Shown here one piece after another: positions 18,899-33,839 of a stretch of 34,111 bases of DNA; position 1 is the stretch's first letter; each line of letters opens with the position of its first letter. The notes below the pieces were generated by a model that was not told where the DNA came from, made no database searches, and was given only the letters and a program-made list of their open reading frames with translations. Source of the stretch: Gammaproteobacteria bacterium (GTDB taxonomy: Bacteria > Pseudomonadota > Gammaproteobacteria > Steroidobacterales > GCA-2729495); assembly GCA_029245525.1 (NCBI GenBank), contig JAQWPD010000066.1, forward strand, positions 1-34,111, written 5' to 3'. A program made the translations under genes and the position numbers.

Positions 18899-19402
18899 AT
18901 GGCAAAAGTATTTGGCATTGCCGGGTATAAAAATGCGGGAAAAACCACGTTGATTGTGGCGTTGTTGCAGCACTTTACTGCAAAGGGGTTGCGGGTAGCT
19001 ACGCTCAAGCACGCGCATCATGAATTCGACATTGATCATCCGGGTAAGGACAGCTTTCAGCACAGAGAAGCAGGTGCCGCCGAGGTTATGGTGGTTTCAG
19101 CCAAGCGTTGGGCGCACATCGCCGAGCTGCAGGATGGGCCAGAGCCAACCTTGGATGATTGTGTGGCACGTCTTGGTGATGTTGATCTGGTCTTAGTGGA
19201 GGGTTGGAAGCTTGGCGGGCACCCGCGACTTGAATTGCGGCGCAGCGGGAACGAAGCACCTGAGCTAGCAGGCCATGACAAGGGTATTGTGGCTATCGTC
19301 TCTGATGGTCCGCTGTTAGATAACGATGTGCCGATGTTGCCACGAGATGACGTATCAGCGATTGCCGGATTTATTTTGCATCATGTGCAGTTGGCGCCAT
19401 AG
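18899..19402 (+). CDS. mobB: Molybdopterin-guanine dinucleotide biosynthesis protein B
   Basis: Protein of 167 residues, normal for MobB. The P-loop GYKNAGKT spans residues 9-16, followed by KHAHHEFDIDHPGKDSFQHR, where the His/Asp-rich family signature sits, and VDLVLVEGWKLGGHPRLELRR, with the Walker B-like Asp-Glu. MobB binds GTP and assists MobA in attaching GMP to molybdopterin, making the bis-MGD cofactor used by DMSO-reductase-family enzymes in the cytoplasm. It is convergent with moeA, sharing only about 10 bases between stops. MobA itself is not in the window. The Shine-Dalgarno is modest (GAG 6 bases before the ATG). Confidence 0.93.
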   Translation: MAKVFGIAGYKNAGKTTLIVALLQHFTAKGLRVATLKHAHHEFDIDHPGKDSFQHREAGAAEVMVVSAKRWAHIAELQDGPEPTLDDCVARLGDVDLVLVEGWKLGGHPRLELRRSGNEAPELAGHDKGIVAIVSDGPLLDNDVPMLPRDDVSAIAGFILHHVQLAP

Positions 19403-19414
19403 GCGTATTTTTTT
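19395..19414 (+). terminator. Compact terminator at mobB stop
   Basis: CGCC-ATA-GGCG forms a 4-bp stem over the mobB stop codon, followed by TA and seven T residues that reach into the moeA stop codon. The stem is short, so efficiency is uncertain. Confidence 0.4.
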
Positions 19415-20606
19415 AGTCGAGCAGTGCTATTAATATCTGGTCGCCGGTCATGCACTGCTCATTAGTTTCAGTAAAGATTGCCCAGCAATTTGCCTGCATC
19501 AAAGGACTGATCTTAAAAGACTCCTGTCCGCCAAGCACTTCCACTTCCAGTTCGCCAACCGCACTCACTGCGGATTTCGCTTTAGCGAAAAATCGCAAGC
19601 CAGCGCGCGAACTTGTGTTATTCAGCAGTTTGGCGGTGTTGTATGTTCCGGGCTTTCGCCCCAGCATTAAGCGGATGGCTTCAACAACAAAGAATCGCCA
19701 GCCTACGGCGACAGCCACAGGGTTGCCGGGCAGGCCAAAAATTAATGTGCCGTTTGGCATACGCGCGAAAAGCAGAGGTTTGCCCGGGCGTATAGCAACC
19801 TTGTGAAATAGGATTTCGGCGCCGAGTCGTCGCAGAGCCTCGGGTATATAGTCCATGCGGCCAGCAGAAACGCCGCCTGTCGTGAGGATAATGTCGGCAC
19901 CTGTAGCGGCGTTGCCAATCGCTGTGGCGATTGCGCCGGCTTCATCCGATACTGAGCAGCTGCCGGTCAGCATGGCGCCAGATTGGTTTACAGCGGCTTC
20001 GAGATAGGGGCGATTGCTGTCGAGGATGATGCCCTTCACATTATCCGCATTTTTCGATGAAATTTCGTTGCCAGTCGTAATTATTGACACTTTCGGTTGC
20101 TGATAGGCAGAAATCTGGTCAATGCCAAGTGCCGCTAAACCCATAATGATCTCTGGGGTAACTGCTGTGCCTATATTCATAGCCTGCATCCCCATGTCGA
20201 AGTCTTCCCCGGGGTTACGAATGTTGGCACCGGGTAACGGTGATGCCTGAAGTTCAACGGTATCATTGCATCTGGTGGTTTTCTCAAGTGGAATGACAGC
20301 GTCATAACCGTCAGGAACAGGCGCGCCGGTCATAATCTCCCATGCGGTACCCGTCTGTGCCGTACCAGTGGGTGCGGACATGCCAGCAGTAATGGTCCCG
20401 AGAACATCGAGTTGGCTTGTTCCAGAGGCGCCATCGGCAGCGATAACGGCAAAGCCATCCATGGCGGAGTTGGCAAAGCCGGGCAGGTCGACCGGACTTG
20501 TTACGGGAGTCGCGCAGACTCTGCCGCAAACGGGCACAATGCTTTCGATTTCCATAGCCTGCGTGTTGGCCGCAATAATGCTGAGTGCTTCTTGATAAGT
20601 AATCAT
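19413..20606 (-). CDS. moeA: Molybdopterin molybdenumtransferase
   Basis: Protein of 397 residues, slightly shorter than E. coli MoeA (411). It inserts molybdate into adenylylated molybdopterin to complete the molybdenum cofactor. Motifs in order are LPGFANSAMDGFAV in domain III, IMTGAPVPDGYDAVIPLE, GNEISS, DSNRPYLEAAV, ILTTGGVSAGRMDYIPEAL (the MPT-binding signature) and HKVAIRPGKPLLFARM, then GLPGNPVAVAVGWRFFV in the active-site domain. The C-terminal beta-barrel domain IV is present. It is a single gene running towards mobB. With mobB and the TorD-like chaperone it marks a molybdoenzyme-supporting locus. Confidence 0.96.
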   Translation of the reverse strand: MITYQEALSIIAANTQAMEIESIVPVCGRVCATPVTSPVDLPGFANSAMDGFAVIAADGASGTSQLDVLGTITAGMSAPTGTAQTGTAWEIMTGAPVPDGYDAVIPLEKTTRCNDTVELQASPLPGANIRNPGEDFDMGMQAMNIGTAVTPEIIMGLAALGIDQISAYQQPKVSIITTGNEISSKNADNVKGIILDSNRPYLEAAVNQSGAMLTGSCSVSDEAGAIATAIGNAATGADIILTTGGVSAGRMDYIPEALRRLGAEILFHKVAIRPGKPLLFARMPNGTLIFGLPGNPVAVAVGWRFFVVEAIRLMLGRKPGTYNTAKLLNNTSSRAGLRFFAKAKSAVSAVGELEVEVLGGQESFKISPLMQANCWAIFTETNEQCMTGDQILIALLD

Positions 20607-20917
20607 GGTGTTTTGTTTTGTCCGAAATTCTGTGATCTAAAGTAATACAACTGGCTCGTTTCGTTCACCGCCCGAATGGTCAGTTTAAATCAGCTTTCTT
20701 ATCGCTGCTTGGCTTTGCCACAGCGCCCGTCGTAATTGATTATTGTTGCTATTCATATTGACCTTTAGGCCCAATCTGTTAATGCTATAAGCTTGTCTCT
20801 CCAGCGACTCGGTTCAACTTGGTGTGTCACGCATTTAAGCTGGCGCCACACCGGACGTGCAGAGGGTAAGCTGTGATGTTTTTAACGTCGTAGACGGATC
20901 ACCATGAGAAAAGCAAT
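20607..20917. other. 311-bp divergent intergenic region between moeA and TorD-like gene
   Basis: No gene is visible. The clearest structure is a hairpin at 20821-20852: GGTGTG pairs with CACACC, and an inner CGC pairs with GCG after a bulge. I looked for an FNR box (TTGAT-N4-ATCAA) and found only half-like sequence near 20736. No recognisable molybdenum-cofactor riboswitch fold was evident by eye. Confidence 0.4.
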
Positions 20918-21613
20918 ATGAGCAAGCAGAAGCATCCCGTGAGCATTGATTCTGGCGATAGAGTTGTTAGTGGCCGAGAGCTGAGTGCTGCAGTTTCTCG
21001 CTGTATGGCTTATGCCGTCATGTCCGATCTGTTGGCCTCACCCCACGATGTGGAATCGGTGGTTTATAACAATAGCGATGCTATTGATTTATCGGGTCTG
21101 CCCTATGCAGTGAACGGTTTAGAGGAGTTGATTGCCGATTATCGTGCAGCGCCTTTGCTGGAATTAAAGCGGGCATACAGTTCCATGTTTGAGGTGGGCA
21201 GTGATGGACCGCCGGTGCCGATTCGTGAAGATTTGCAGTTGGGCCAAAAGTCTGGCGTGCGCGAAGAGTTGGTGCGCTTTTACGATTTTTTTGGTTATAC
21301 GCTGAGCGAGAAGTTCGCTTGGGCGCCGGATCATTTATCGCTGGAGCTTGAGTTTATGCAGTTTCTTGCTGTCAGTGAGGCTGAGGGGTTGGATCAGTTG
21401 GCAAATGGCGAAACACCAGAAGCCGACCTTGCTTCTTTTCAGCTTGGGCAGATTGATTTTCTTCAGCGTCACCTGATCAATTGGGTACCCATCGTGCTGC
21501 ATGCAGTAGAAGAACAAAATAGCAATTCTTTTTATTATCGTGTGGTATCGGTGCTGCGTGACTTTCTGGCCGCAGATTTCGAATGGCAGTCTGGAACTAT
21601 TGCGACGTCTTGA
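20918..21613 (+). CDS. TorD/DmsD-family molybdoenzyme chaperone
   Basis: Protein of 231 residues, all helical in character. Helix segments carry family signatures: SRCMAYAVMSDLLASP, ELKRAYSSMFEVGSDGPPVP, REELVRFYDFFGYTLSEKF and APDHLSLELEFMQFLA, the last being the TorD-type E/PDHL motif. Members bind the Tat signal and apoprotein of DMSO-reductase-family enzymes in the cytoplasm and help cofactor insertion. The PPVP and RFYDFFGY segments resemble chaperones of the dimethylsulfide/ethylbenzene dehydrogenase group more than TorD itself, by eye only. GAGAAAAG precedes the ATG. No molybdoenzyme catalytic subunit lies in the window, so its client must be elsewhere or lost. Confidence 0.82.
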   Translation: MSKQKHPVSIDSGDRVVSGRELSAAVSRCMAYAVMSDLLASPHDVESVVYNNSDAIDLSGLPYAVNGLEELIADYRAAPLLELKRAYSSMFEVGSDGPPVPIREDLQLGQKSGVREELVRFYDFFGYTLSEKFAWAPDHLSLELEFMQFLAVSEAEGLDQLANGETPEADLASFQLGQIDFLQRHLINWVPIVLHAVEEQNSNSFYYRVVSVLRDFLAADFEWQSGTIATS

Positions 21614-21744
21614 GTCCCGGAAGGTCTCGATGATCGCCTGATGTTCAAAAATGGATAGATGTGCAATGGAGTTATGCATCATTGTTCTATTTGCTTGAAG
21701 ATAGAGCAATTACAAATAAAATGAGCTATTGAGGAGAGCGGTAC

Positions 21745-21825
21745 ATGGTCTCCCGAAACTCTTGCTGTTTTTTCCGCATTGGTGGGCTGCGTTGTGAGCC
21801 TCTATGGTGCCGATGGGTTTCGTGA
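21745..21825 (+). CDS. Possible 26-residue leader peptide before cytochrome c gene
   Basis: An ATG at 21745 follows GAGGAGAG at a spacing of about 7 bases, one of the better ribosome-binding sites here, and opens a 26-residue frame rich in Cys and Arg. It ends 20 bases before the cytochrome c start. It could be a coupled leader peptide. Alternatively the signal belongs to a frame-shifted remnant, because the next frame over (21725-21916) reads more like protein. No homology is recognised. Confidence 0.2.
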   Translation: MVSRNSCCFFRIGGLRCEPLWCRWVS

Positions 21826-21845
21826 AGTCACCGCCGAGAATGTTT

Positions 21846-22385
21846 ATGAACTTACGACGTTATTTAGGTTTTGGCGCCATTGCGATTGCAGTGGTTATTA
21901 TTGGGCTCTGGAGTAGTCAGTCTCCCGATTACACTGATGCAGCTCTGGTCGAAGCCGATGCAGTAGATGATACGCATCCCCTTAAAGACAGCTCGGTTGG
22001 TGGCTCTTACAATAAAGATGGCGTAGCACCTTTTGGAATGGTGCAGCGTTTGCCCAAACAGCTTGACGGCGTCGCAGTTGTTGCTGTTGCTGCAGAGGTC
22101 CCTGGAGTTGAGGTTGTGATGGCGGACCAGAACGCACTTTTCGGCGTTCACTGCGTTGCGTGTCATGGGCGTGACGGGCTCGGTGTCGAGCCGCTCGGCG
22201 TGGGTCTGGTGGACTCATCGTTCGTACAGAGTAAATCGACTGCTGAGCTCGTAGAGATGTTGAAAGTCGGACGAATGCCAGACAGTGCTGACAGCGTCAA
22301 AGGTCGTGTTATGCCGGGTTTCGCCTGGATGGGTGACGATCAGCTTACCGAGTTAGCCGTGTTCCTGCAGGCGCAAAACCCTTAG
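21846..22385 (+). CDS. Membrane-anchored class I c-type cytochrome
   Basis: Protein of 179 residues from the ATG at 21846. Upstream ATGs at 21840 and 21804 are possible, but GAGAA at 21836-21840 suits 21846. An uncleaved hydrophobic N-terminus (about 7-22) anchors it, with a periplasmic low-complexity linker to residue 95. The single haem site is C103-V-A-C106-H107, followed by GRDGLG, and Met156 in RVMPGF is the likely axial ligand. The fold resembles the small cytochromes fused or partnered to periplasmic dehydrogenases. It should pass electrons from a periplasmic enzyme to the respiratory chain. It is 232 bases after the TorD-like gene, with a strong terminator after it. Partner unknown. 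Confidence 0.87.
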   Translation: MNLRRYLGFGAIAIAVVIIGLWSSQSPDYTDAALVEADAVDDTHPLKDSSVGGSYNKDGVAPFGMVQRLPKQLDGVAVVAVAAEVPGVEVVMADQNALFGVHCVACHGRDGLGVEPLGVGLVDSSFVQSKSTAELVEMLKVGRMPDSADSVKGRVMPGFAWMGDDQLTELAVFLQAQNP

Positions 22386-24128: not shown

Positions 24129-25070
24129 CTAAGCTGCACTGATTCGGTCGATTTCCGCCAATTCGTCAGTGCTCAGGCTAACATTGCCTGCAGCCGCATT
24201 GGCTTTGACCTGTTCCGGTTTGGTGACGCCCGCAATCACACTGCCGACATAGTCGCGATTGGTGAGTCCGCTCATGGCGATGTCCAGAATGCTTTTGCCT
24301 ATGCTCTCACCGTAGCTGATCAGCTGTTCTACCTTCTCCAGCCGTTCATCGGTTTTAAATGAGCCGCCCCACGCCGCCAGGCGTGAACCTTCAGGGTCGG
24401 GCTGGCCTTTGCGGTACTTGCCGGTGAGCAAGCCTGATTCGAGGGGGAAGTAGGGAATAATGCTGATGTTGTCTTTCTCGGCGACGGGCAGTAGATCATC
24501 CTCAATAGTGCGGGTGAACAGGCTGTACCAGTTCTGCGCGGAGATGTAAGGGCTGGTCCCCGCAGCATCAGCGGCTGCTGCTGCTTCGGCTAACTGGGCG
24601 CCATTCATGTTGGAGCAACCAATGTGTCGTACCTTGCCCTGTTGGATAAGGTCTTCCAGTGCGCGCAGGGTTTCTTCAGCCGGTGTATTGATATCGGGAA
24701 AGTGATATTGGTACAGGTCGAGGTAATCGGTGTTTAGCCTTGAGAGACTTTCCTCAATCTTCGTCATGATGTAGCCGCGGGTGCCACCATTCTCAATACT
24801 GCCGCCACGACCGCCAGAGTTGGCGCCGAATTTAGTTGTAAGCACAATATCTTTGCGCTTAGCACCCAGTGCTTTGGCCAAATACTCCTCCGATGAGCTG
24901 GGGCTTTTACCGTAGATATCGGCCGTGTCAAAAAAGTTAATGCCGGCATCGAGCGCCGCATTGACGCAGGCGGTGGTTGCATCCTGATCAACCATCGAGC
25001 CAAACATCATGCAGCCGAGGCCCACTACTGAAACCTGAAGGTCCGAATTTCCCAGTTGTTTTTTTCTCAT
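24129..25070 (-). CDS. Aldo/keto reductase
   Basis: Protein of 313 residues with a complete (alpha/beta)8-barrel pattern. The catalytic tetrad is visible: Asp48 and Tyr53 in FFDTADIYG, Lys80 in LTTKFG and His123 in YQYHFPD. The NADPH-binding C-terminal end has SVIAGVTKPEQV. The family reduces aldehydes or ketones to alcohols, or runs the reverse, using NADP(H). GLGCMMFG near residues 17-24 is typical of the MocA/YajO-type AKRs. The ATG overlaps the upstream MFS stop as ATGA, so translation is coupled. It is the last gene of the tetR-dioxygenase-MFS-AKR series. Substrate is unknown. Confidence 0.93.
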   Translation of the reverse strand: MRKKQLGNSDLQVSVVGLGCMMFGSMVDQDATTACVNAALDAGINFFDTADIYGKSPSSSEEYLAKALGAKRKDIVLTTKFGANSGGRGGSIENGGTRGYIMTKIEESLSRLNTDYLDLYQYHFPDINTPAEETLRALEDLIQQGKVRHIGCSNMNGAQLAEAAAAADAAGTSPYISAQNWYSLFTRTIEDDLLPVAEKDNISIIPYFPLESGLLTGKYRKGQPDPEGSRLAAWGGSFKTDERLEKVEQLISYGESIGKSILDIAMSGLTNRDYVGSVIAGVTKPEQVKANAAAGNVSLSTDELAEIDRISAA

Positions 25071-26398
25071 TGTGAGCTGTCCTGAACAGAGGCGGTTATG
25101 GGTTGATATTTACCGTGGCGCAAGCGAATCCATAAAGCATAAAACATCAACGCCGCATTCAGTATGCCCATCATTACAAATGGTGCGGTAGGGCTGATGC
25201 TGTCGTAAATTTCGCCACCAACCTTCGACGCAAATAAAATACCAATCGCGCCGACGAGCCCGAATACGCCGACTACCGAGCCACGAATTTTCTGTGGGGC
25301 TTGTTGACCCAGTAGTGCGCCTGCGGAAATAATGACGCTGATTTCACCTATGCCGAGAATGACACACATCAAATAGATGTTGCTGCCAAATGGGTCTGCC
25401 ACCGTACCCATGAGTGTGTAGCCGACCGCAGCAATAAATAAACCGAGCGCCATGCTGGATACCCGGTCAAATTTGTCAGAGATTATGCCCATAAATACAG
25501 CCCAGCCCATGGCCGAGAGCTGAATAAGGCCAAACAGCATACCGGCTTTGGCAAGACTGTCGCCGGTGCTCATGCCCACCTCGATGCCGAGTTGAACAAT
25601 CCACAAAGAAAAGAAGGTGCCGATAACCACCAGATCACCCCGACCGATAAATGCCGACATAAAGGCCAGCGCCATGCGGGGCCGCTTACCCTCGCGCAAA
25701 CCGGCTTTAAGCTGCTGTGTTAAAGGAACTTTGGCTTTGGTCTTGCCGCCGCCGCCGGGCTTCAAACCGAAGCTAAGTACTGCCGCAGCGACCAAACAAA
25801 CTGCCGTTGCTGTCCAATAAGCATAGCGTCCAGCAGCTATCGGATCGGCGCCGTATTCCAGATACATGGCAGGTGTTTTTGCCAGTAGTGTTGCCATAAT
25901 AACCACGCCGAGGCCATTGCAAATTGAGGTAACGCCGAGCCATCGTGCGCGAGAGAACTCCTGAATATAGTCGACAATACAGGCGCTGAGCATGACCGGG
26001 ACAACGGCAGCGCCAACACCGAACAGGCAACGAAATATATACAGTTGAGCCACTGAGTTAGCGAGAGGGTAAATCAGATAGCCGGCTGCCAGGAGCAGGA
26101 AACCGCTGACAAATATCAGTTTTCTGCCGGTGCGGTCAGAAAGGGCGCCAGCGACGCCCATAACCATAATAACAACCACCTCCTGAACAGCGGCAAGATT
26201 GCCGGTAAGGGCGCCTTGTTCGGCTTGGGGTATGTGAAGGATTTCGGTTAGCAGATAGGGTTGAATGAAGCCCATGTAAGCAATAGCCGAGATGCTGGTT
26301 AAGCAGGCAAACAGCAAGGTAAAAACATTCATGCCCGAATAGCCGGGAATGAACCATAGGGGACCGATTTTTAGTCCGGCAGTGTCCGGTTTCAGCAT
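25067..26398 (-). CDS. MFS transporter of the dioxygenase/AKR operon
   Basis: Protein of 443 residues with twelve hydrophobic segments and a central loop (about residues 210-240) containing PGGGGKTKAKVP. The MFS motif A region is GALSDRTGRKLIFVSGF, with a related GIISDKFDRVSSMALG in the second half. It is divergent in sequence from the MFS protein at 22547-23896. The start ATG has no good Shine-Dalgarno, but N-terminal residues before TM1 (IGPLWFIPGYSGMNVFTLLF) look family-like. It lies 45 bases after the dioxygenase gene and overlaps the AKR by 4 bases. It probably imports the substrate or exports a product of this module. Confidence 0.9.
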   Translation of the reverse strand: MLKPDTAGLKIGPLWFIPGYSGMNVFTLLFACLTSISAIAYMGFIQPYLLTEILHIPQAEQGALTGNLAAVQEVVVIMVMGVAGALSDRTGRKLIFVSGFLLLAAGYLIYPLANSVAQLYIFRCLFGVGAAVVPVMLSACIVDYIQEFSRARWLGVTSICNGLGVVIMATLLAKTPAMYLEYGADPIAAGRYAYWTATAVCLVAAAVLSFGLKPGGGGKTKAKVPLTQQLKAGLREGKRPRMALAFMSAFIGRGDLVVIGTFFSLWIVQLGIEVGMSTGDSLAKAGMLFGLIQLSAMGWAVFMGIISDKFDRVSSMALGLFIAAVGYTLMGTVADPFGSNIYLMCVILGIGEISVIISAGALLGQQAPQKIRGSVVGVFGLVGAIGILFASKVGGEIYDSISPTAPFVMMGILNAALMFYALWIRLRHGKYQPITASVQDSSQ

Positions 26399-26443: not shown

Positions 26444-27316
26444 TTATACAGGGCGTTTTGTATCGGCAATAGCAACGCGATGCATCAGGCGGTGAGCGGG
26501 GAAGAAATCACTGATGCCACGATGGGCAGTGCAACGATTGTCCCAAAAAGCCACTGAGTGTTTTTCCCAGCGGAACCGGACCATGTACTCTTCTTGGGTC
26601 ATGTGTTCATAAAGCATGTCGAGAAGGGTTTTGCTTTCTGGGTCAGATAAACCTTTGATCCGGAAGGTCATCAGCGGGTTAACCAGCAAGCATTTTTCCT
26701 TGGTTTCTGGGTGAGTACGGATTATCGGATGCTCAACCGGTGGGGTTGACTCACGAAATTTCTGCCAGCGGTCCGGGCCATATTGCTTGAGCACACCCGG
26801 CCCCATGGTTTCCACCAGGTCATGGATGGCGGTGAGTCCGAGTAAGAAGTCCTGCATAGGCTTAGAGAGACCTTCATACGCCGCTGCCATATTCACCCAT
26901 ACCGTATCACCCTTTCCGATGGGTACATCTAGAGCATGCAGCACAGAGCATTTGGAGGGGATCTCAAGGAAAGTATCATCGGTATGCCAATTAATGTCAC
27001 TGCTTACCGCGCTGTATTCGTTCATTTCCTGGCGACGAATTTGTGGATAGCCATCAAGCAACGGCACAAAGCCCGGCTTTTGGACTTCATCACCGAAGTG
27101 CATAGCAAAGGCAATGTGTTGTTCGGGAGTCAGATCCTGATCGCGGAAGAACAGAACTTTGTATTGAAGAAAAAGTTCTTTCAGAACCTTTACTGCATCG
27201 TGATCAAGTTCGCTGGTCAGGTCTATATTAAGGACTTCAGCGCCCAGCGCATTGGTCATGGGCTTGACGATAATGCCGGAAGCCGCTGAAACTCTAGCTG
27301 ACTGAGCGTTTGACAT
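26444..27316 (-). CDS. TauD/TfdA-family Fe(II)/2-oxoglutarate dioxygenase
   Basis: Protein of 290 residues. I chose the ATG at 27316, which has AAGGAG about 8 bases upstream; an earlier frame start lies inside tetR. The iron-binding triad is seen as His111 and Asp113 in NWHTDDTF and His265 in TAHRGISDFF. Arg280 (HRLMHRVAI) is at the position that binds 2-oxoglutarate, 15 residues after the distal His as in TauD. The N-terminal LGAEVLNIDLTSEL and VLFFRDQDLTPEQH are family hallmarks. These enzymes hydroxylate substrates such as taurine, 2,4-D or alkyl sulfates with O2. The start overlaps the tetR end by 23 bases. Substrate is not inferable. Confidence 0.95.
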   Translation of the reverse strand: MSNAQSARVSAASGIIVKPMTNALGAEVLNIDLTSELDHDAVKVLKELFLQYKVLFFRDQDLTPEQHIAFAMHFGDEVQKPGFVPLLDGYPQIRRQEMNEYSAVSSDINWHTDDTFLEIPSKCSVLHALDVPIGKGDTVWVNMAAAYEGLSKPMQDFLLGLTAIHDLVETMGPGVLKQYGPDRWQKFRESTPPVEHPIIRTHPETKEKCLLVNPLMTFRIKGLSDPESKTLLDMLYEHMTQEEYMVRFRWEKHSVAFWDNRCTAHRGISDFFPAHRLMHRVAIADTKRPV

Positions 27317-27974
27317 GGCGTAACTCCTTATAAGTGGTGTCTGATATCGGTGCAGAGAGCGCACCTGTTAGGCAATCGACCAGGTTGGCTGCAAATAGGG
27401 CGCCATACTTTTGAAAATCAATAGCTGGGTTATTGCGTAAGCGTTCGCGGTCGGCCAATGCATGAATTATTTGTGCAACAGCCAAGCCGAATCTCTGGCC
27501 GAGAATATCGGCAGGCAGATCGCTCATTAGCGCTTCTATTTTTTTGAGGATGGTATTTAGCGCTGAACCGTGTGTGCTTGACCAGAGGGCTTGCAGATCT
27601 ACCGAAGGGCTGCCAATCATTTGGGAGAGAAAACGAACATAATGCTGGCCGCCCTCGCTCCCATCGATTTCATCAACAATCGGGTACACCATAGCCTCGA
27701 CAAGTGATTGCAGGTTGCCGTCAAGGTCAGCGCCTTCCAGCGCCCTAAGGCGTCGCCGATTAACGTTTTCCATGCGATAGTCGTAAATTGCGTTGATCAG
27801 CGTTTTTTTATTGCCAAAGTGGTAGTGGGTGGCTGACGAGTTCTTTTGCCCTGCTTCTATGTTGATCTGCCGCAAAGAGACGGCATCGATGCCTTGGTCG
27901 CCGAAAAGGCGTTCAGCCGCAAGAATGATTTTTAGGAGGGTGCGTTCGCTAGCGGAATTGATCTTGGTTACCAT
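27294..27974 (-). CDS. TetR-family transcriptional regulator
   Basis: Protein of 226 residues. The N-terminal helix-turn-helix covers about residues 12-60: LLKIILAAERLFGDQGIDAVS, then LRQINIEAGQKNSSATHYHFGNKKTL. The C-terminal ligand and dimer domain is not closely recognisable. The HTH form SSATHYHFGNK is common in regulators of catabolic or efflux genes. It is the promoter-proximal gene ahead of the dioxygenase, so it probably represses the dioxygenase-MFS-AKR genes and itself. No Shine-Dalgarno precedes the ATG and the best -10 ends 8 bases before it, suggesting a leaderless or near-leaderless transcript. The last 23 bases overlap the dioxygenase start. Confidence 0.93.
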   Translation of the reverse strand: MVTKINSASERTLLKIILAAERLFGDQGIDAVSLRQINIEAGQKNSSATHYHFGNKKTLINAIYDYRMENVNRRRLRALEGADLDGNLQSLVEAMVYPIVDEIDGSEGGQHYVRFLSQMIGSPSVDLQALWSSTHGSALNTILKKIEALMSDLPADILGQRFGLAVAQIIHALADRERLRNNPAIDFQKYGALFAANLVDCLTGALSAPISDTTYKELRHVKRSVS

Positions 27975-28064: not shown

Positions 28065-29600
28065 CTATTTGGTTGATTCTAGTGATTTCACCGCAAAAAC
28101 CCGGCCAAAATAATTATCGATAGATGCTTCGAGCACGGTCGCCGTTTCACTGGGGATTCCTGCTAGCGCGCGTGCCAGCTGTTTTTTATAGTCAAGCTGC
28201 ATGGCGCGGCCAATCTGTATTCGCTGAGCCTGAGGTGATCCGGCACCATGCATTGATTCGGTGAGGTAGCCAACCGCGTTACGCCCCAGTGTCATGTTCT
28301 CAATGAGGCGAAGAATCCGTACTCTATTTTCTGTAGGAATATCGGCGCGACCTTGCAGATATTTTTCGATAAGTGGACCCGCTTCCGGATGCTTCATGTC
28401 GGCCTCTGAGGGCAGTGTTACCATCAGGCCGCCGGCGAGATCCTGAGCAAGTCTGCTCAGTTCATAGGGCATCTTAGTGACATGATGCTTGCAGACATTC
28501 GCCAGCATCTCATCAGCGAGATAGGCGCCTGAGCGGGTTTTGCTCGCCTGATAACTGGCGGCAATTCCAGTGCTGTAGATGGTCTCATTAAGATGAGTCA
28601 TCTCGACTAATTTATCTTTGATGTGCGAGGCTCGCTCGACACCGTTGTATTCGGCAACAGTGGCGGCAGCACCAATAAGAACATCGCCAACGCCCGATTT
28701 ACAGACATAACTGCGGCGGTGATAGCAGGTGAATCGCTCCACAAGCATGGCGGCGAAATCGTGTTCGCCATTCATAAAGATTTTGTCATGTGGAATAAAT
28801 ACGTTGTCGAACACAATCATCGCTTCCTGGCCAGCGAACTGTGCGTTACCGGCATCAATGTCTCCATCCGCACTGCGGGTGTCACAGGACTGTCGACCAT
28901 AGATATAGGTTATGCCATCAGCATCGACAGGAATAGCGCCAACCAGTGCGAAGTCTTTATCGGCTTCTCCCAAGCGGATGGTGGGCATAACCAGTAACCA
29001 GTGCGAGTTAATGCAACCGGTTTGGTGCGCCTTTGCCCCGGTAACATAAACGCCTGCCTTCGTGCGCTTAGTGACATGCAGATACATATCCTGATCAGCT
29101 TGTTCATGCGGTGCCTTGCTGCGATCGCCTTTGACGTCGGTCATAGCACCACCAATAACGTAGCCCTTGCTTTGAGTCATGCCGATGAAGTCTTTCAGCA
29201 GTTGATGGTAGTTAGTGCTGTGTTGTTCATCGATTTCATAGGTCACAGAGAACAGTGAATTCAATGCATCCATACCGACGCAGCGTTGAAAACAGGTCCC
29301 GGTGAGTTGGCCCAGTCGTCGTTGCATTTTGTTCTGGTTAATGAGGTCTTCAGGACTCTCGGCAATGTGCAGGAAACGGTTAACGCGTTCGCCGGTAAAT
29401 GGCGACAAAGCCGTTGCGATATCCGGGTTAGATTGCGCAAGGTCGTAGGTGGCAGCAACAGCATTTATAGAAGGGCGGATGATCGGATGATCAACCGGCT
29501 CATCAATCAACTCACCCAACAAAAATATCTTGAGCTCGCGGCTTCTGAGGCTGGCGATATAGTCGGCGCCGGTTTCGATTTTGGTTGCGTTGTTTGCCAT
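28065..29600 (-). CDS. 4-hydroxybutyryl-CoA dehydratase-like [4Fe-4S]/FAD protein (HpaB superfamily)
   Basis: Protein of 511 residues of the 4-hydroxyphenylacetate 3-hydroxylase (HpaB) fold, but much closer to 4-hydroxybutyryl-CoA dehydratase/vinylacetyl-CoA isomerase (AbfD). Fe-S ligands are present: Cys103 and Cys107 in CFQRCVGMDALN, and His294 and Cys300 in YHRRSYVCKSG. In Clostridium aminobutyricum the ligands are Cys99, Cys103, His292 and Cys299, so here one residue is missing between His and the last Cys. Other active-site positions match: Glu259 (GQEAMIVFDN), Tyr298, Lys301, Thr194 (AHQTG) and Glu448 (TESMHGAGSPQAQR). The family dehydrates hydroxyacyl-CoA through a flavin radical. No CoA ligase or transferase is adjacent. 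It is 90 bases upstream of tetR, same strand. The start lacks a clear Shine-Dalgarno. Confidence 0.88.
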   Translation of the reverse strand: MANNATKIETGADYIASLRSRELKIFLLGELIDEPVDHPIIRPSINAVAATYDLAQSNPDIATALSPFTGERVNRFLHIAESPEDLINQNKMQRRLGQLTGTCFQRCVGMDALNSLFSVTYEIDEQHSTNYHQLLKDFIGMTQSKGYVIGGAMTDVKGDRSKAPHEQADQDMYLHVTKRTKAGVYVTGAKAHQTGCINSHWLLVMPTIRLGEADKDFALVGAIPVDADGITYIYGRQSCDTRSADGDIDAGNAQFAGQEAMIVFDNVFIPHDKIFMNGEHDFAAMLVERFTCYHRRSYVCKSGVGDVLIGAAATVAEYNGVERASHIKDKLVEMTHLNETIYSTGIAASYQASKTRSGAYLADEMLANVCKHHVTKMPYELSRLAQDLAGGLMVTLPSEADMKHPEAGPLIEKYLQGRADIPTENRVRILRLIENMTLGRNAVGYLTESMHGAGSPQAQRIQIGRAMQLDYKKQLARALAGIPSETATVLEASIDNYFGRVFAVKSLESTK

Positions 29601-29792
29601 GAGAGTTGTCTTTTATAGCTGATTGGCGAGTAGGAAGACCTGCTGACCATGCTGGAAAATATTTTGTGTGCTTTAGTTTATCATGCCAGCTATTGCGCCG
29701 CAGTTGATGGCGGCAGGGTGAGTTGTTGCCATTGGTATAAGCTCTAAGATCAGGTATTGTCTGGTCATATTCACTATTGCGGTATCTGTACT
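29601..29792. promoter_or_regulatory. 192-bp divergent region between dehydratase-like gene and His-tailed MFS gene
   Basis: On the minus strand, TATAAA about 15 bases before the dehydratase ATG is a possible -10 without a good -35. A 10-base palindrome AAAATATTTT lies at 29656-29665, flanked by GCTGG (29651-29655) and CCAGC (29686-29690). It could hold a shared operator, but no regulator can be assigned. Confidence 0.3.
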
Positions 29793-31175
29793 ATGTCATC
29801 TTCTCCATTTCGCCATTCCAGTTTTCGCCGTTTGTTTTCAGCTCAGGTTATTGCATTGGTTGGCACCGGTCTGACCACGGTGGCGCTTACCTTGCTAGCC
29901 TATGACCTTGCCGGAGGCAATGCGGGAATCGTTCTAGGAACAGCGCTGGCCTTTAAAATGGTGGCCTATGTTATTTTCTCCCCCATTTTGGGCGGCTTGG
30001 CACACCGGTTTCCCCGCAAAGCATTGCTCATTATTCTGGATGTGATCCGCGCTGCCGTAGTACTGGCAATGCCGTTTGTTACAGCCGTCTGGCAGGTTTA
30101 TCTATTGATTTTTTTGCTTAATTTATTTTCTGCTGGTTTTAAGCCGGTGTTTGCTGCCAGCATTCCCGACGTGTTGCCCTCCGAAGAGGAATACACCAAG
30201 GCGCTATCGTATTCTCGCCTCGCTTACGATTTAGAGTCGCTGCTGAGTCCGTTGTTCGCGGGCTTGGCACTGTTGTATTTCAGTTACACAGCATTGTTTC
30301 TGGGTAACTCCGTGGCATTTCTGATTTCGGCTGTATTGATTATGGGTTGTGTGCTCCCGCACGCAACCCAGCCGGAGCGCAGCAACAGTATTTGGGAAGA
30401 AATTACCTTTGGGCTGCGTTCCTATATGGCCACTCCGAGATTGCGTGCGTTGCTGACCCTTTACGCCGCCGTAGCGGCAGCGAGCGCCATGGTTATTGTG
30501 AATACCGTGGTGTTTATCCGGGAGAACATGGGCCTTGAAGATTCGGATGTTGCTATGGCGTTTGCGGCTGCCGGCCTAGGTTCAATGATTGCTGCTTTGC
30601 TTGTGCCTAAGGCTCTTGAGTTCGTTAATGATCGCGCTTTGATGATTGGTGGTTCAGTATGCATGGGGGTCGGGCTATTGCTTACGGCGACTGATCTGTC
30701 ATACCCGCAGTTGCTGCTCGTGTGGTTTTTTGTCGGGCTCGGCTTGTCATTGGTGCAAACCCCCGCGGGCCGTATTGTAAACCGTTCTTCATCGCCGGAG
30801 GATCGACCTGCGTATTTCTCCGCGCAGTTTGCTTTATCCCATGCCTGTTGGCTCATTGCTTATCCGGTGGTCGGAATGCTTGGCGCAACGCTTGGTGTGG
30901 TATCTACTGCTGGTATTATGGGAGGAGTTGTATTGGCGTTTACGGCGCTGGCATACGCAATGTGGCCGCGTGGGGATGGAGAGTCGCTAACGCACTTGCA
31001 TACCGAAATGAATCATCTTCATCCGCATAAGCATGGTTCGCATCACGAGCATGCGCATGAAGGTTGGGAAGGCCCGGAGCCCCACGTTCATGAGCATCGG
31101 CATCGACCGATTAGGCACCTTCATCGCTTTGTCATTGACGACCATCATCGGCATTGGCCAGAAGCCCAGAACTGA
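29793..31175 (+). CDS. MFS exporter with His-rich C-terminal tail (NreB-like)
   Basis: Protein of 460 residues. The first 390 or so hold about twelve transmembrane segments of the MFS_3/EntS type; FRHSSFRRLFSAQVIALVGTG, GGLAHRFPRKALLIILDVIR and FSAGFKPVFAASIPDVL are characteristic. The last 71 residues contain 19 His, in clusters such as HLHPHKHGSHHEHAHE and HVHEHRHRP. NreB of Achromobacter xylosoxidans and cyanobacterial NrsD are MFS nickel-resistance exporters with similar His-rich tails, so Ni(II) or another divalent metal efflux is likely. The start ATG at 29793 has only a weak Shine-Dalgarno; an earlier TTG at 29757 is less likely. It is convergent with the TonB-dependent receptor, 36 bases apart. 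Metal identity is inferred. Confidence 0.85.
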   Translation: MSSSPFRHSSFRRLFSAQVIALVGTGLTTVALTLLAYDLAGGNAGIVLGTALAFKMVAYVIFSPILGGLAHRFPRKALLIILDVIRAAVVLAMPFVTAVWQVYLLIFLLNLFSAGFKPVFAASIPDVLPSEEEYTKALSYSRLAYDLESLLSPLFAGLALLYFSYTALFLGNSVAFLISAVLIMGCVLPHATQPERSNSIWEEITFGLRSYMATPRLRALLTLYAAVAAASAMVIVNTVVFIRENMGLEDSDVAMAFAAAGLGSMIAALLVPKALEFVNDRALMIGGSVCMGVGLLLTATDLSYPQLLLVWFFVGLGLSLVQTPAGRIVNRSSSPEDRPAYFSAQFALSHACWLIAYPVVGMLGATLGVVSTAGIMGGVVLAFTALAYAMWPRGDGESLTHLHTEMNHLHPHKHGSHHEHAHEGWEGPEPHVHEHRHRPIRHLHRFVIDDHHRHWPEAQN

Positions 31176-31211: not shown

Positions 31212-33839
31212 TTAGAATTTGTAGAGTAAATCCAGTCCGTATTGTCTGCCGCGCGAGGGCGCGAACGCGGCGGTTTCAATGCCGGTTCGACAGGGCCCGC
31301 CGCCACAGTTTTTTCCCCAGTTGATGTTTGATGGTGTGCCGGAGAAGTATAAGAAGCTCGGTGCAGATTGTGGCGTTTCATCGTTCAGAATATTGCTAAC
31401 GTAGCCTGTTATAGCCCAGTCATCTGATTCGAGTCCGAGTCTGCCGTTCCATATGGTGCGAGCCGGCAATACCAGGAAGTTAGCCGCCCCGGTGTAGCGT
31501 TTTGATTCCCAGACCGCATCCGTGCGGGCAAACCAGTCGATAGCACCTTTTAATTGATGGGTATAAGCCAGCGAGCCAACCACTGACTGTTTCGGGCTAA
31601 ATGGGATGCTATTTCCCGCAGCGTTGTTTGCATTTGGGTCCAGCGTGGCCGTGCCGGGGATAAGGCCTTCGCCCGTTGTAAAGGCAATTAAGTCGCTGTT
31701 GAAACGCTTGTATTTACCATCAGCGAGGCCGTAAGACATGCTTGCTATTAGGTTATCTGTTACAGCGAATGAGCTTTCCAGTTCCAAGCCGATTACTTCA
31801 GAGCGACCTGCATTACTTTGGGTGGTGGCAATGATGTTGCCAAGATCAATGGTCTGGAACACGGTTTGGTTTTGCCATTCAATGGCGAATACCGATAGGT
31901 TGAACAACGCTCGACCATCAAGCCACGTGGTTTTAGTGCCGGCCTCATACGTCCATGCTGTTTCTTCCTTGGTTTGTGTAAGGCCTTGGGCTCTAGCTTC
32001 CAATGTAGCGCAAGGGTCATCCTGCACCGTGGCACGGAAATAGGCGTCATTGAATTCAGCGGGCTTGTTGCCTTTAGCCGCCAATGCGTAAACCATGATG
32101 TCGTCGGTGGCCTGCCAGCTTAGTGTGATACGAGGTGTTAGCGCGTCGTTATCAGTTGCATCATTAAGCTGCTGACCGTTGTATGGGCTGGCAGGGTCCT
32201 CGCAGAAGTAGGGAGAGTCGATGGTCTTTTTATCTTTTGCGTAACGAGCTTCCAAGCTGAGAGTTAGGTCTGAAGTAATATCCACGTCGATTGTTCCGAA
32301 TACAGAACGGTTACGGATAGTTTTTTGTAGCGGTTGTTCGAACTGCCCTAAGCCGCTTCCGGGCGCAAAGCCCCAGTAGCCAACATAACGACGCGAGGAG
32401 TTAGTTTGATCGGAGTTAAATGCATAGACGCCAAGCGAGCCGCGTACCGGAACATTCTGTGGTGAGCTAACGATGAGTTCTAATGATTTATCCTTAACCT
32501 CGAGTATTTGTTCCGTGGTAAAGACACCACCAATGGGGCGGGTTTCGCGTTGATCCAGATCATAAGCTGTACGGAATTCATCCTTGTTGTATGCCACACG
32601 GGCGCTTAATTCCCATTCACCAAGGCCTTGATCAATAGTGAGTAAGCTGCGCTTCTGTTCGCGATCGCTGCCGGGCCGGGTTGGTGCTGCCGTCAAGGTA
32701 GGGTCGCTTGTATTGAGTAATGTCATTCCATTACGGAAGTCGGGCAGGTTGAAGCGTGACTGACGTGCTCCGCCGTTCAGTGGTGCACCCGGAATATAAG
32801 GGCCGGCAAACGGGTTGCCATTGGCATAAGTCACCTGATTGAAATCAACTTCGCCACAATACGCGCCCTGACTGGTGTTGTACCAAACTTCATTGCTGTT
32901 ATCGGCAGTGCCATTGGTGCCTTTAGTCGGCAGGTAGCAGTTGAGCTCGCCGGGTTCCAAAATTAACTGAGCGTAGTGATCATCGCGCGCTTTGGTGTAG
33001 CCAAGCTTCAAACCAATTTCAGTGGTTTCGGTGGCGTTCCAGAGCAGTTTGCCGACGAAGTCTTTCGTTTCTGTTCCGCCCAGTTTGCTGCTGTCGCCAT
33101 ATTGGGGTGGGTCAATGAATGCTCCTGTCGTCGCTTGATTGGCTTTTAGATCGTTATTCCACTCACCGCCATATTGATCGTAACCTGCGGCAATGAAGTA
33201 GGTGAGTGTGTCCTCAATAATCGGCCCGCTTGTCCAGCCACTGAGCTGAAGAGTGTCGTTGGTGGCCGTTAGCAGGCGCACTTCCCCTTCTTGTTCATTG
33301 GTCGGTTTTCGCGTTATGTAGTTTACGGCGCCGGCAAAGGTAGCACGACCAAATTGGGCCGACTGCGGACCCCGTAAGATTTCCACCTGTTCAACCGGCC
33401 CCAGCGTAGCACTTGAGATACTGCCCGAGACAAAAACACCGTCAATAAAGTATGAGGCATTGGCTTCGCCACCGACAGAAGGACCTGATTGACCACGGAT
33501 AACCGGACGATCGAGGCGTCGTCCAAGCTGTTGATTGGTGCTGAAGTTTGGAGTGATTAGTGCCACATCGTAGTTATTTGTTGCACCGACCTTTTGCAGT
33601 TGGTCAGCGGACCAGGCGCTAATTGATAATGGCGTATCCTGCAGAGACGTAGCACGCTTCTTGGCAGTGACAGTAATTTCTTCGAGTCCTCCACCGGTCC
33701 ACTGATTGCCCGTGGCTTCGAGTGGGGTCTCTTGAGTGAAGTTTTCATCATCGCTTTGAGCGTTACTTTGTAGAGGAAGCAACATGGCGCTTGCTATTGC
33801 AGCAGTGAATACTTTCGATAGAGGATGAGAAGGATGCAA
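31212..33839 (-). CDS. TonB-dependent outer-membrane receptor
   Basis: Protein of 875 residues. A signal peptide (about 1-28, ending SNAQ) precedes a TonB-box-like LEEITVTAKKR (52-62) and a plug domain with RPVIRGQSGP (111-120), YFIDGVFV and VEQVEILRGPQSAQFGR (149-165). The remainder is a 22-strand beta-barrel pattern ending in aromatic YGLDLLYKF. Extracellular loops contain Cys pairs such as NCGGGPC near the C-terminus. The start is TTG, preceded by GGAG 7 bases upstream; no better start follows. It imports a large or scarce ligand across the outer membrane using TonB energy. The ligand is unknown; the adjacent metal exporter is only a hint. A putative phase-variable promoter lies just upstream. 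Confidence 0.93.
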   Translation of the reverse strand: MHPSHPLSKVFTAAIASAMLLPLQSNAQSDDENFTQETPLEATGNQWTGGGLEEITVTAKKRATSLQDTPLSISAWSADQLQKVGATNNYDVALITPNFSTNQQLGRRLDRPVIRGQSGPSVGGEANASYFIDGVFVSGSISSATLGPVEQVEILRGPQSAQFGRATFAGAVNYITRKPTNEQEGEVRLLTATNDTLQLSGWTSGPIIEDTLTYFIAAGYDQYGGEWNNDLKANQATTGAFIDPPQYGDSSKLGGTETKDFVGKLLWNATETTEIGLKLGYTKARDDHYAQLILEPGELNCYLPTKGTNGTADNSNEVWYNTSQGAYCGEVDFNQVTYANGNPFAGPYIPGAPLNGGARQSRFNLPDFRNGMTLLNTSDPTLTAAPTRPGSDREQKRSLLTIDQGLGEWELSARVAYNKDEFRTAYDLDQRETRPIGGVFTTEQILEVKDKSLELIVSSPQNVPVRGSLGVYAFNSDQTNSSRRYVGYWGFAPGSGLGQFEQPLQKTIRNRSVFGTIDVDITSDLTLSLEARYAKDKKTIDSPYFCEDPASPYNGQQLNDATDNDALTPRITLSWQATDDIMVYALAAKGNKPAEFNDAYFRATVQDDPCATLEARAQGLTQTKEETAWTYEAGTKTTWLDGRALFNLSVFAIEWQNQTVFQTIDLGNIIATTQSNAGRSEVIGLELESSFAVTDNLIASMSYGLADGKYKRFNSDLIAFTTGEGLIPGTATLDPNANNAAGNSIPFSPKQSVVGSLAYTHQLKGAIDWFARTDAVWESKRYTGAANFLVLPARTIWNGRLGLESDDWAITGYVSNILNDETPQSAPSFLYFSGTPSNINWGKNCGGGPCRTGIETAAFAPSRGRQYGLDLLYKF

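Follow-up and report, generated by a model that had tools for sequence, protein, structure and literature searches.

A gammaproteobacterial homologue of thaumarchaeal-type 4-hydroxybutyryl-CoA dehydratase carrying the short iron-sulfur ligand loop of its subfamily

The window analysed here, a stretch of 34,111 nucleotides from a gammaproteobacterium, contains a gene for an AbfD-like radical dehydratase in which the His and Cys ligands of the iron-sulfur cluster are one residue closer together than in the Clostridium enzyme. The question raised by this locus is whether the shortened loop is peculiar to one protein or marks a wider group, and what it could mean for the enzyme and its host. The preliminary description of the sequence treated the loop as an unusual trait of the window protein; it is instead standard in the thaumarchaeal-type 4-hydroxybutyryl-CoA dehydratase (4HBD) and is present in a solved structure (PDB 6vjr). 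The loop is thus a real, clade-defining feature of a known subfamily. The gene and the residues discussed below are as follows.

28065..29600, minus strand: AbfD/4HBD gene (Pfam HpaB_N and HpaB; phmmer matches to 6vjr and 1u8v; AlphaFold2 model)
29280..29294, minus strand: C103-x3-C107 (CFQRC), two Cys ligands of the [4Fe-4S] cluster (aligned with clostridial C99/C103)
28824..28826, minus strand: E259, the equivalent of clostridial E257 (alignment; invariant in the H-x5-C clade)
28698..28721, minus strand: H294-RRSYV-C300-K301, the shortened ligand loop (H-x5-C) with Y298 and K301 (sequence; alignment with 1u8v and 6vjr; clade)
28257..28259, minus strand: E448, the equivalent of clostridial E455 (alignment; invariant in the H-x5-C clade)

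The open reading frame occupies exactly 28065-29600 on the minus strand and is complete, encoding 511 amino acids with 0 internal stops, in agreement with the intact frame reported previously. Pfam HpaB_N and HpaB domains were detected, and both Pfam and an AlphaFold2 model (mean pLDDT 83) indicate an HpaB-type acyl-CoA-dehydrogenase-like fold over the full length of the protein. The top two phmmer matches among solved structures were 6vjr (E 3e-238), the 4HBD of N. maritimus, and 1u8v (E 3e-171), that of C. aminobutyricum, and the same two led the structural matches of the model (Z 54.8 and Z 50.2), followed by HpaB monooxygenases near Z 37. The HpaB 4-hydroxyphenylacetate 3-monooxygenases (2yyg, 6qyh) share the Pfam domains, fold and FAD-binding with the window protein but are about 21% identical to it, with no C-x3-C ligand pair aligned in 9lft. 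Identity as such a monooxygenase was ruled out by the Fe-S ligands and by the curated NCBIfam cut-offs, the HpaB equivalog models giving 159.9 bits against a cut-off of 480.2 and 94.7 against 885.2.

Alignment with 1u8v and 6vjr bore out both the AbfD assignment and the presence of all four cluster ligands, with C103, C107, H294 and C300 of the window protein corresponding to clostridial C99, C103, H292 and C299; the C103 and C107 pair is invariant in all 43 H-x5-C and 34 H-x6-C rows of the tree described below. The other active-site residues, Q105, M153, T194, E259, Y298, K301 and E448, match one-to-one with Q101, M149, T190, E257, Y296, K300 and E455, which we take to have catalytic roles in the clostridial enzyme, and the active-site Tyr and Lys indeed lie within the loop. 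The loop codons CAC CGC CGC AGT TAT GTC TGT AAA encode H294, R, R, S, Y298, V, C300 and K301, so that the H-x5-C spacing first noted for His294 and Cys300, against H-x6-C in Clostridium, is exact. The change of Tyr-Gly-Gly-Cys to Tyr-Val-Cys is seen in the aligned loops, HRQSYGGCK of C. aminobutyricum having one residue more than HRRSYVCK of the window protein. By the secondary structure of the model, helix 280-296 ends shortly after His294 and helix 300-318 begins with Cys300, and the deletion would therefore shorten the link between the two helices. A full-text literature search on the ligand residues found no discussion of His-Cys loop spacing.

Judged by its sequence, the window protein is a 4HBD homologue of the 6vjr-type (thaumarchaeal-type) subfamily, with the HRRSYVCK loop, the diagnostic substitutions and a position inside the 6vjr clade. 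It shares with the N. maritimus enzyme the identical loop, all ligands and catalytic residues, and 67-70% identity, but differs from it in its bacterial host, its other gene neighborhood and a role probably outside a CO2-fixation cycle. The C. aminobutyricum enzyme has the same fold, ligands and catalytic residues at about 54-56% identity, whereas its loop is of the H-x6-C type and most of the diagnostic substitutions are absent; C. aminobutyricum is a strict anaerobe. Assignment to the clostridial type, with H-x6-C and Gly-Gly before the Cys, was rejected, the window loop reading YVC and being one residue shorter. The crenarchaeal-type 4HBDs (putatively from Sulfolobales and related archaea, in a score band near E 1e-165) belong to the same family and have the four ligands, but carry H-x6-C loops (HRQGYAGCK, HRQGYGGCK) and form a separate clade. 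The best named match to the window enzyme is from a 'Chromatiales bacterium' MAG (96% identity), and the next named one in the GTDB contig collection is from Woeseiaceae.

The preliminary description had considered that all close relatives might carry H-x6-C, which was not so. HRRSYVCK was found in each of the 29 relatives with loci that were read, most of which belong to the window's own genome family, and without exception in the best 80 matches from the GTDB contig collection, among them Thaumarchaeota, Woeseiaceae, Bradyrhizobium, Chloroflexi, Saprospiraceae, Planctomycetes, Myxococcota and others; a loop peculiar to this genome was thereby ruled out. The best 80 are the sequences nearest to the window protein and are biased when taken alone, and genomes were therefore drawn evenly from the archaeal phylum of one locus (L054), the phylum of a Chloroflexi genome and the phylum of a Deltaproteobacteria/Myxococcota genome. 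Both loop types are present in these phyla. Among the sequences read, the top-scoring archaeal group has HRRSYVCK throughout, and H-x6-C occurs in lower-scoring archaeal, Chloroflexi and myxobacterial-phylum proteins as well as in Fusobacterium and Cetobacterium (plasmid collection). Beyond its family the gene is rare in the window's phylum (at E 1e-60, 3 of 299 genomes including the window's own), and a close match (at least 69% identity) occurs in 36 of 59 other near genomes, most of them in one family. One genome of the window's family (L031, G034:C43) has both a close copy of the window enzyme and a distant H-x6-C copy (HRANYGGCK). The Bradyrhizobium genome of L049 has an intact AbfD-like gene and, beside it, pieces of another that is interrupted by in-frame TGA codons and is probably a decayed copy (G359:C38:467151-468181). 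Three AbfD-like genes of archaea (G425:C27:29326-30759, G468:C34:5627-7054 and G477:C1:6122-7561) contain one or two in-frame stops and are either decaying or affected by assembly errors.

Phylogenetic analysis of 82 sequences (43 main-group H-x5-C, 1 odd H-x5-C, 34 H-x6-C and 4 without ligands), with the loop columns removed, answered the earlier question of whether H-x5-C defines a clade: the 43 diverse HRRSYVCK sequences fall into a single clade supported at 100/100, in a bootstrap that is still rough and not fully settled. The clade holds ammonia-oxidising archaea together with bacteria of many phyla, and two changes of the H-x5-C label are needed on the tree, against 27 with shuffled labels. 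The short-loop variant was already known structurally, since 6vjr, released in 2021, has the identical loop; what is new is that the H-x5-C spacing marks a widespread subfamily of archaea and many bacterial phyla. The ligand-less relatives retain the longer spacing (e.g. HRFTAISYK), which makes the short loop derived and H-x6-C the ancestral length. A second H-x5-C loop, HRQSYACK, stands amid the H-x6-C part of the tree in a Chloroflexota locus (L202, about 2377-2400, in a 1.6 Mb genome, G859); it fell outside the main H-x5-C clade in all 200 bootstrap trees examined and is thus probably a separate loss. The loop belongs to a larger package of substitutions: about 18 positions are near-fixed in the H-x5-C clade and rare in H-x6-C proteins, the diagnostic residues including Q89, N90, G150, C196, W201, R209, C239, T291, R296, V299, Q386, R440 and N441, and the clade also has a 2-residue deletion after residue 57.

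Oxygen-sensitive iron-sulfur radical enzymes restrict where pathways can operate, and oxygen tolerance is a plausible correlate of the short loop on account of the archaeal enzyme, for which 6vjr is entitled 'Oxygen tolerant Archeal 4hydroxybutyrylCoA dehydratase (4HBD) from N. maritimus'. The thaumarchaeal 4HBD has also been named O2-tolerant elsewhere (PMC11494057; PMC7554672), and the last common ancestor of ammonia-oxidising archaea was suggested to have acquired the enzyme (PMC7554672). By analogy, the window protein may be oxygen tolerant as well. Heme-copper oxidase (PF00115), used as a proxy for an aerobic host, was found in 38 of 39 H-x5-C hosts and in 16 of 25 H-x6-C hosts (Fisher p 0.0005). 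This p value should not be taken as independent evidence: within the sampled clade the loop has essentially a single origin, and the counts reflect one evolutionary event, not independent trials. H-x6-C and oxidases occur together in large genomes from the myxobacterial-phylum search and in Sulfolobales-like archaea, and a PF00115 search of the L202 host genome (G859) found no heme-copper oxidase; aerobic life thus does not require the short loop, nor does the loop reliably indicate it.

An interpretation with nearly even odds is that the short loop is a neutral lineage marker, in which the deletion was tolerated with Val in place of Gly-Gly, any oxygen tolerance of the bacterial enzymes came from other substitutions on the branch, and the identity of the enzyme was unchanged. 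Accompanied as it is by some 18 near-fixed substitutions and another deletion, the loop cannot be singled out among them, and the H-x6-C aerobes and the H-x5-C protein of L202 likewise fit neutrality. On the other hand, V299 is invariant in 43 of 43 clade rows across archaea and many bacterial phyla, so the loop is under some kind of selection. It is a more tentative proposal that loss of the residue between His and Cys, together with its companion substitutions, made the enzyme air-stable, and that the dehydratase, having arisen once in this form, was thereby able to spread to aerobic archaea and to bacteria of many phyla. As the H-x5-C and the H-x6-C form are each represented by a solved structure, loop swaps can test what underlies oxygen tolerance in 4HBD.

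The reading preferred here, at a probability of about three in four, is that the window gene encodes a 4HBD of the 6vjr subfamily in which one codon was lost once and the chemistry was kept, with a package of changes that likely serves survival in air and a role that is probably catabolic in this host. The enzyme would use FAD and a [4Fe-4S] cluster to convert 4-hydroxybutyryl-CoA to crotonyl-CoA by flavin-driven radical chemistry. One codon of the loop would have been lost once in the ancestor of the subfamily (Tyr-Gly-Gly-Cys to Tyr-Val-Cys), a loss accompanied by nearby and distant substitutions, while the cluster ligands and catalytic residues are all retained; because they are kept, the protein is predicted to work like the known enzyme. 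The most likely benefit of the package would be a cluster that survives air, suiting aerobic hosts. Nothing in the analysis supports a changed substrate or cluster type. It is improbable that the altered loop directs the enzyme to a different hydroxyacyl-CoA or makes it mainly a vinylacetyl-CoA isomerase: residues that differ on the branch, such as W201 for E and C196 for A/V, could accommodate such a change, and the neighboring TauD, aldo/keto reductase and, in relatives, carbon-nitrogen hydrolase genes are compatible with other substrates, but the N. maritimus enzyme, a 4HBD by PDB title and pathway role, is 70% identical and has the same loop and all catalytic residues.

The genes around that for the dehydratase are as follows.

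24129..25070, minus strand: aldo/keto reductase, a candidate semialdehyde reductase (PF00248; cluster c1, 9 loci)
25067..26398, minus strand: MFS transporter (cluster c3, 8 loci)
26444..27364, minus strand: TauD-family 2-oxoglutarate dioxygenase (PF02668; cluster c26, only the window and L251, within the genus)
27294..27974, minus strand: TetR-family regulator, the next gene downstream, in an order kept in several relatives (NCBIfam PsrA-like TetR; cluster c8, 6 loci)
29757..31175, plus strand: MFS transporter, divergent from AbfD (TIGR00900; cluster c4, 8 loci)
31212..33839, minus strand: TonB-dependent receptor (PF00593/PF07715; cluster c5, 8 loci)

Neighboring genes were clustered across 41 bacterial loci and then again across 31. 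The order TonB-MFS-AbfD-TetR-MFS-aldo/keto reductase largely recurs in L251, L252, L254 and L255 and partly in L270, in some cases with a carbon-nitrogen hydrolase. This set is common to only part of the window's family and neighbors differ widely beyond it, and a conserved operon that would name the substrate was therefore rejected. The neighborhood is more in keeping with the breakdown of an imported C4 compound than with CO2 fixation, and the role is probably catabolic. Under the preferred reading, a C4 compound would be taken up through the TonB-dependent receptor and MFS transporters and a semialdehyde reduced by the aldo/keto reductase, followed by CoA activation, dehydration to crotonyl-CoA and beta-oxidation; a CoA-activating enzyme for this putative route was not identified in the analysis.

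A role in the HP/HB (CO2-fixation) cycle was judged distinctly unlikely. The enzyme is of the archaeal type, and the cycle has been proposed from gene content for the SBR1093 bacterium (PMC4195664). Methylmalonyl-CoA mutase is also present in the genome, but it is widespread in heterotrophs, and the neighbors are uptake and redox genes rather than genes of the cycle. Furthermore, an ADP-forming acyl-CoA synthetase of the N. maritimus type was not found in the genome (G000, 98% complete), in which the only PF13607 match is a short SucD-like protein of the size of succinyl-CoA synthetase. Where thaumarchaeal 4HBD genes serve as a marker of CO2 fixation by archaea, PCR primers or sequence searches may also recover bacterial genes that share the loop and encode proteins about 70% identical.

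Removal of the codon by a sequencing or assembly error is refuted, in line with the one-codon evolutionary deletion favored at the outset, because the same loop is found in a solved structure and in independent genomes, two of the same genus (L002, L003) having it with synonymous codon differences and all other close relatives sharing it.

Two further loci were observed in the window. At 18899-22385, genes for MobB, MoeA, a DMSO-reductase type II chaperone and a cytochrome c lie close together, and a catalytic molybdoenzyme subunit was not identified among the window proteins scanned. At 977-2746, a gene for an exosortase EpsH-DUF3485 fusion lies beside glycosyltransferase and UDP-GlcNAc 2-epimerase genes, forming an exosortase/exopolysaccharide locus.
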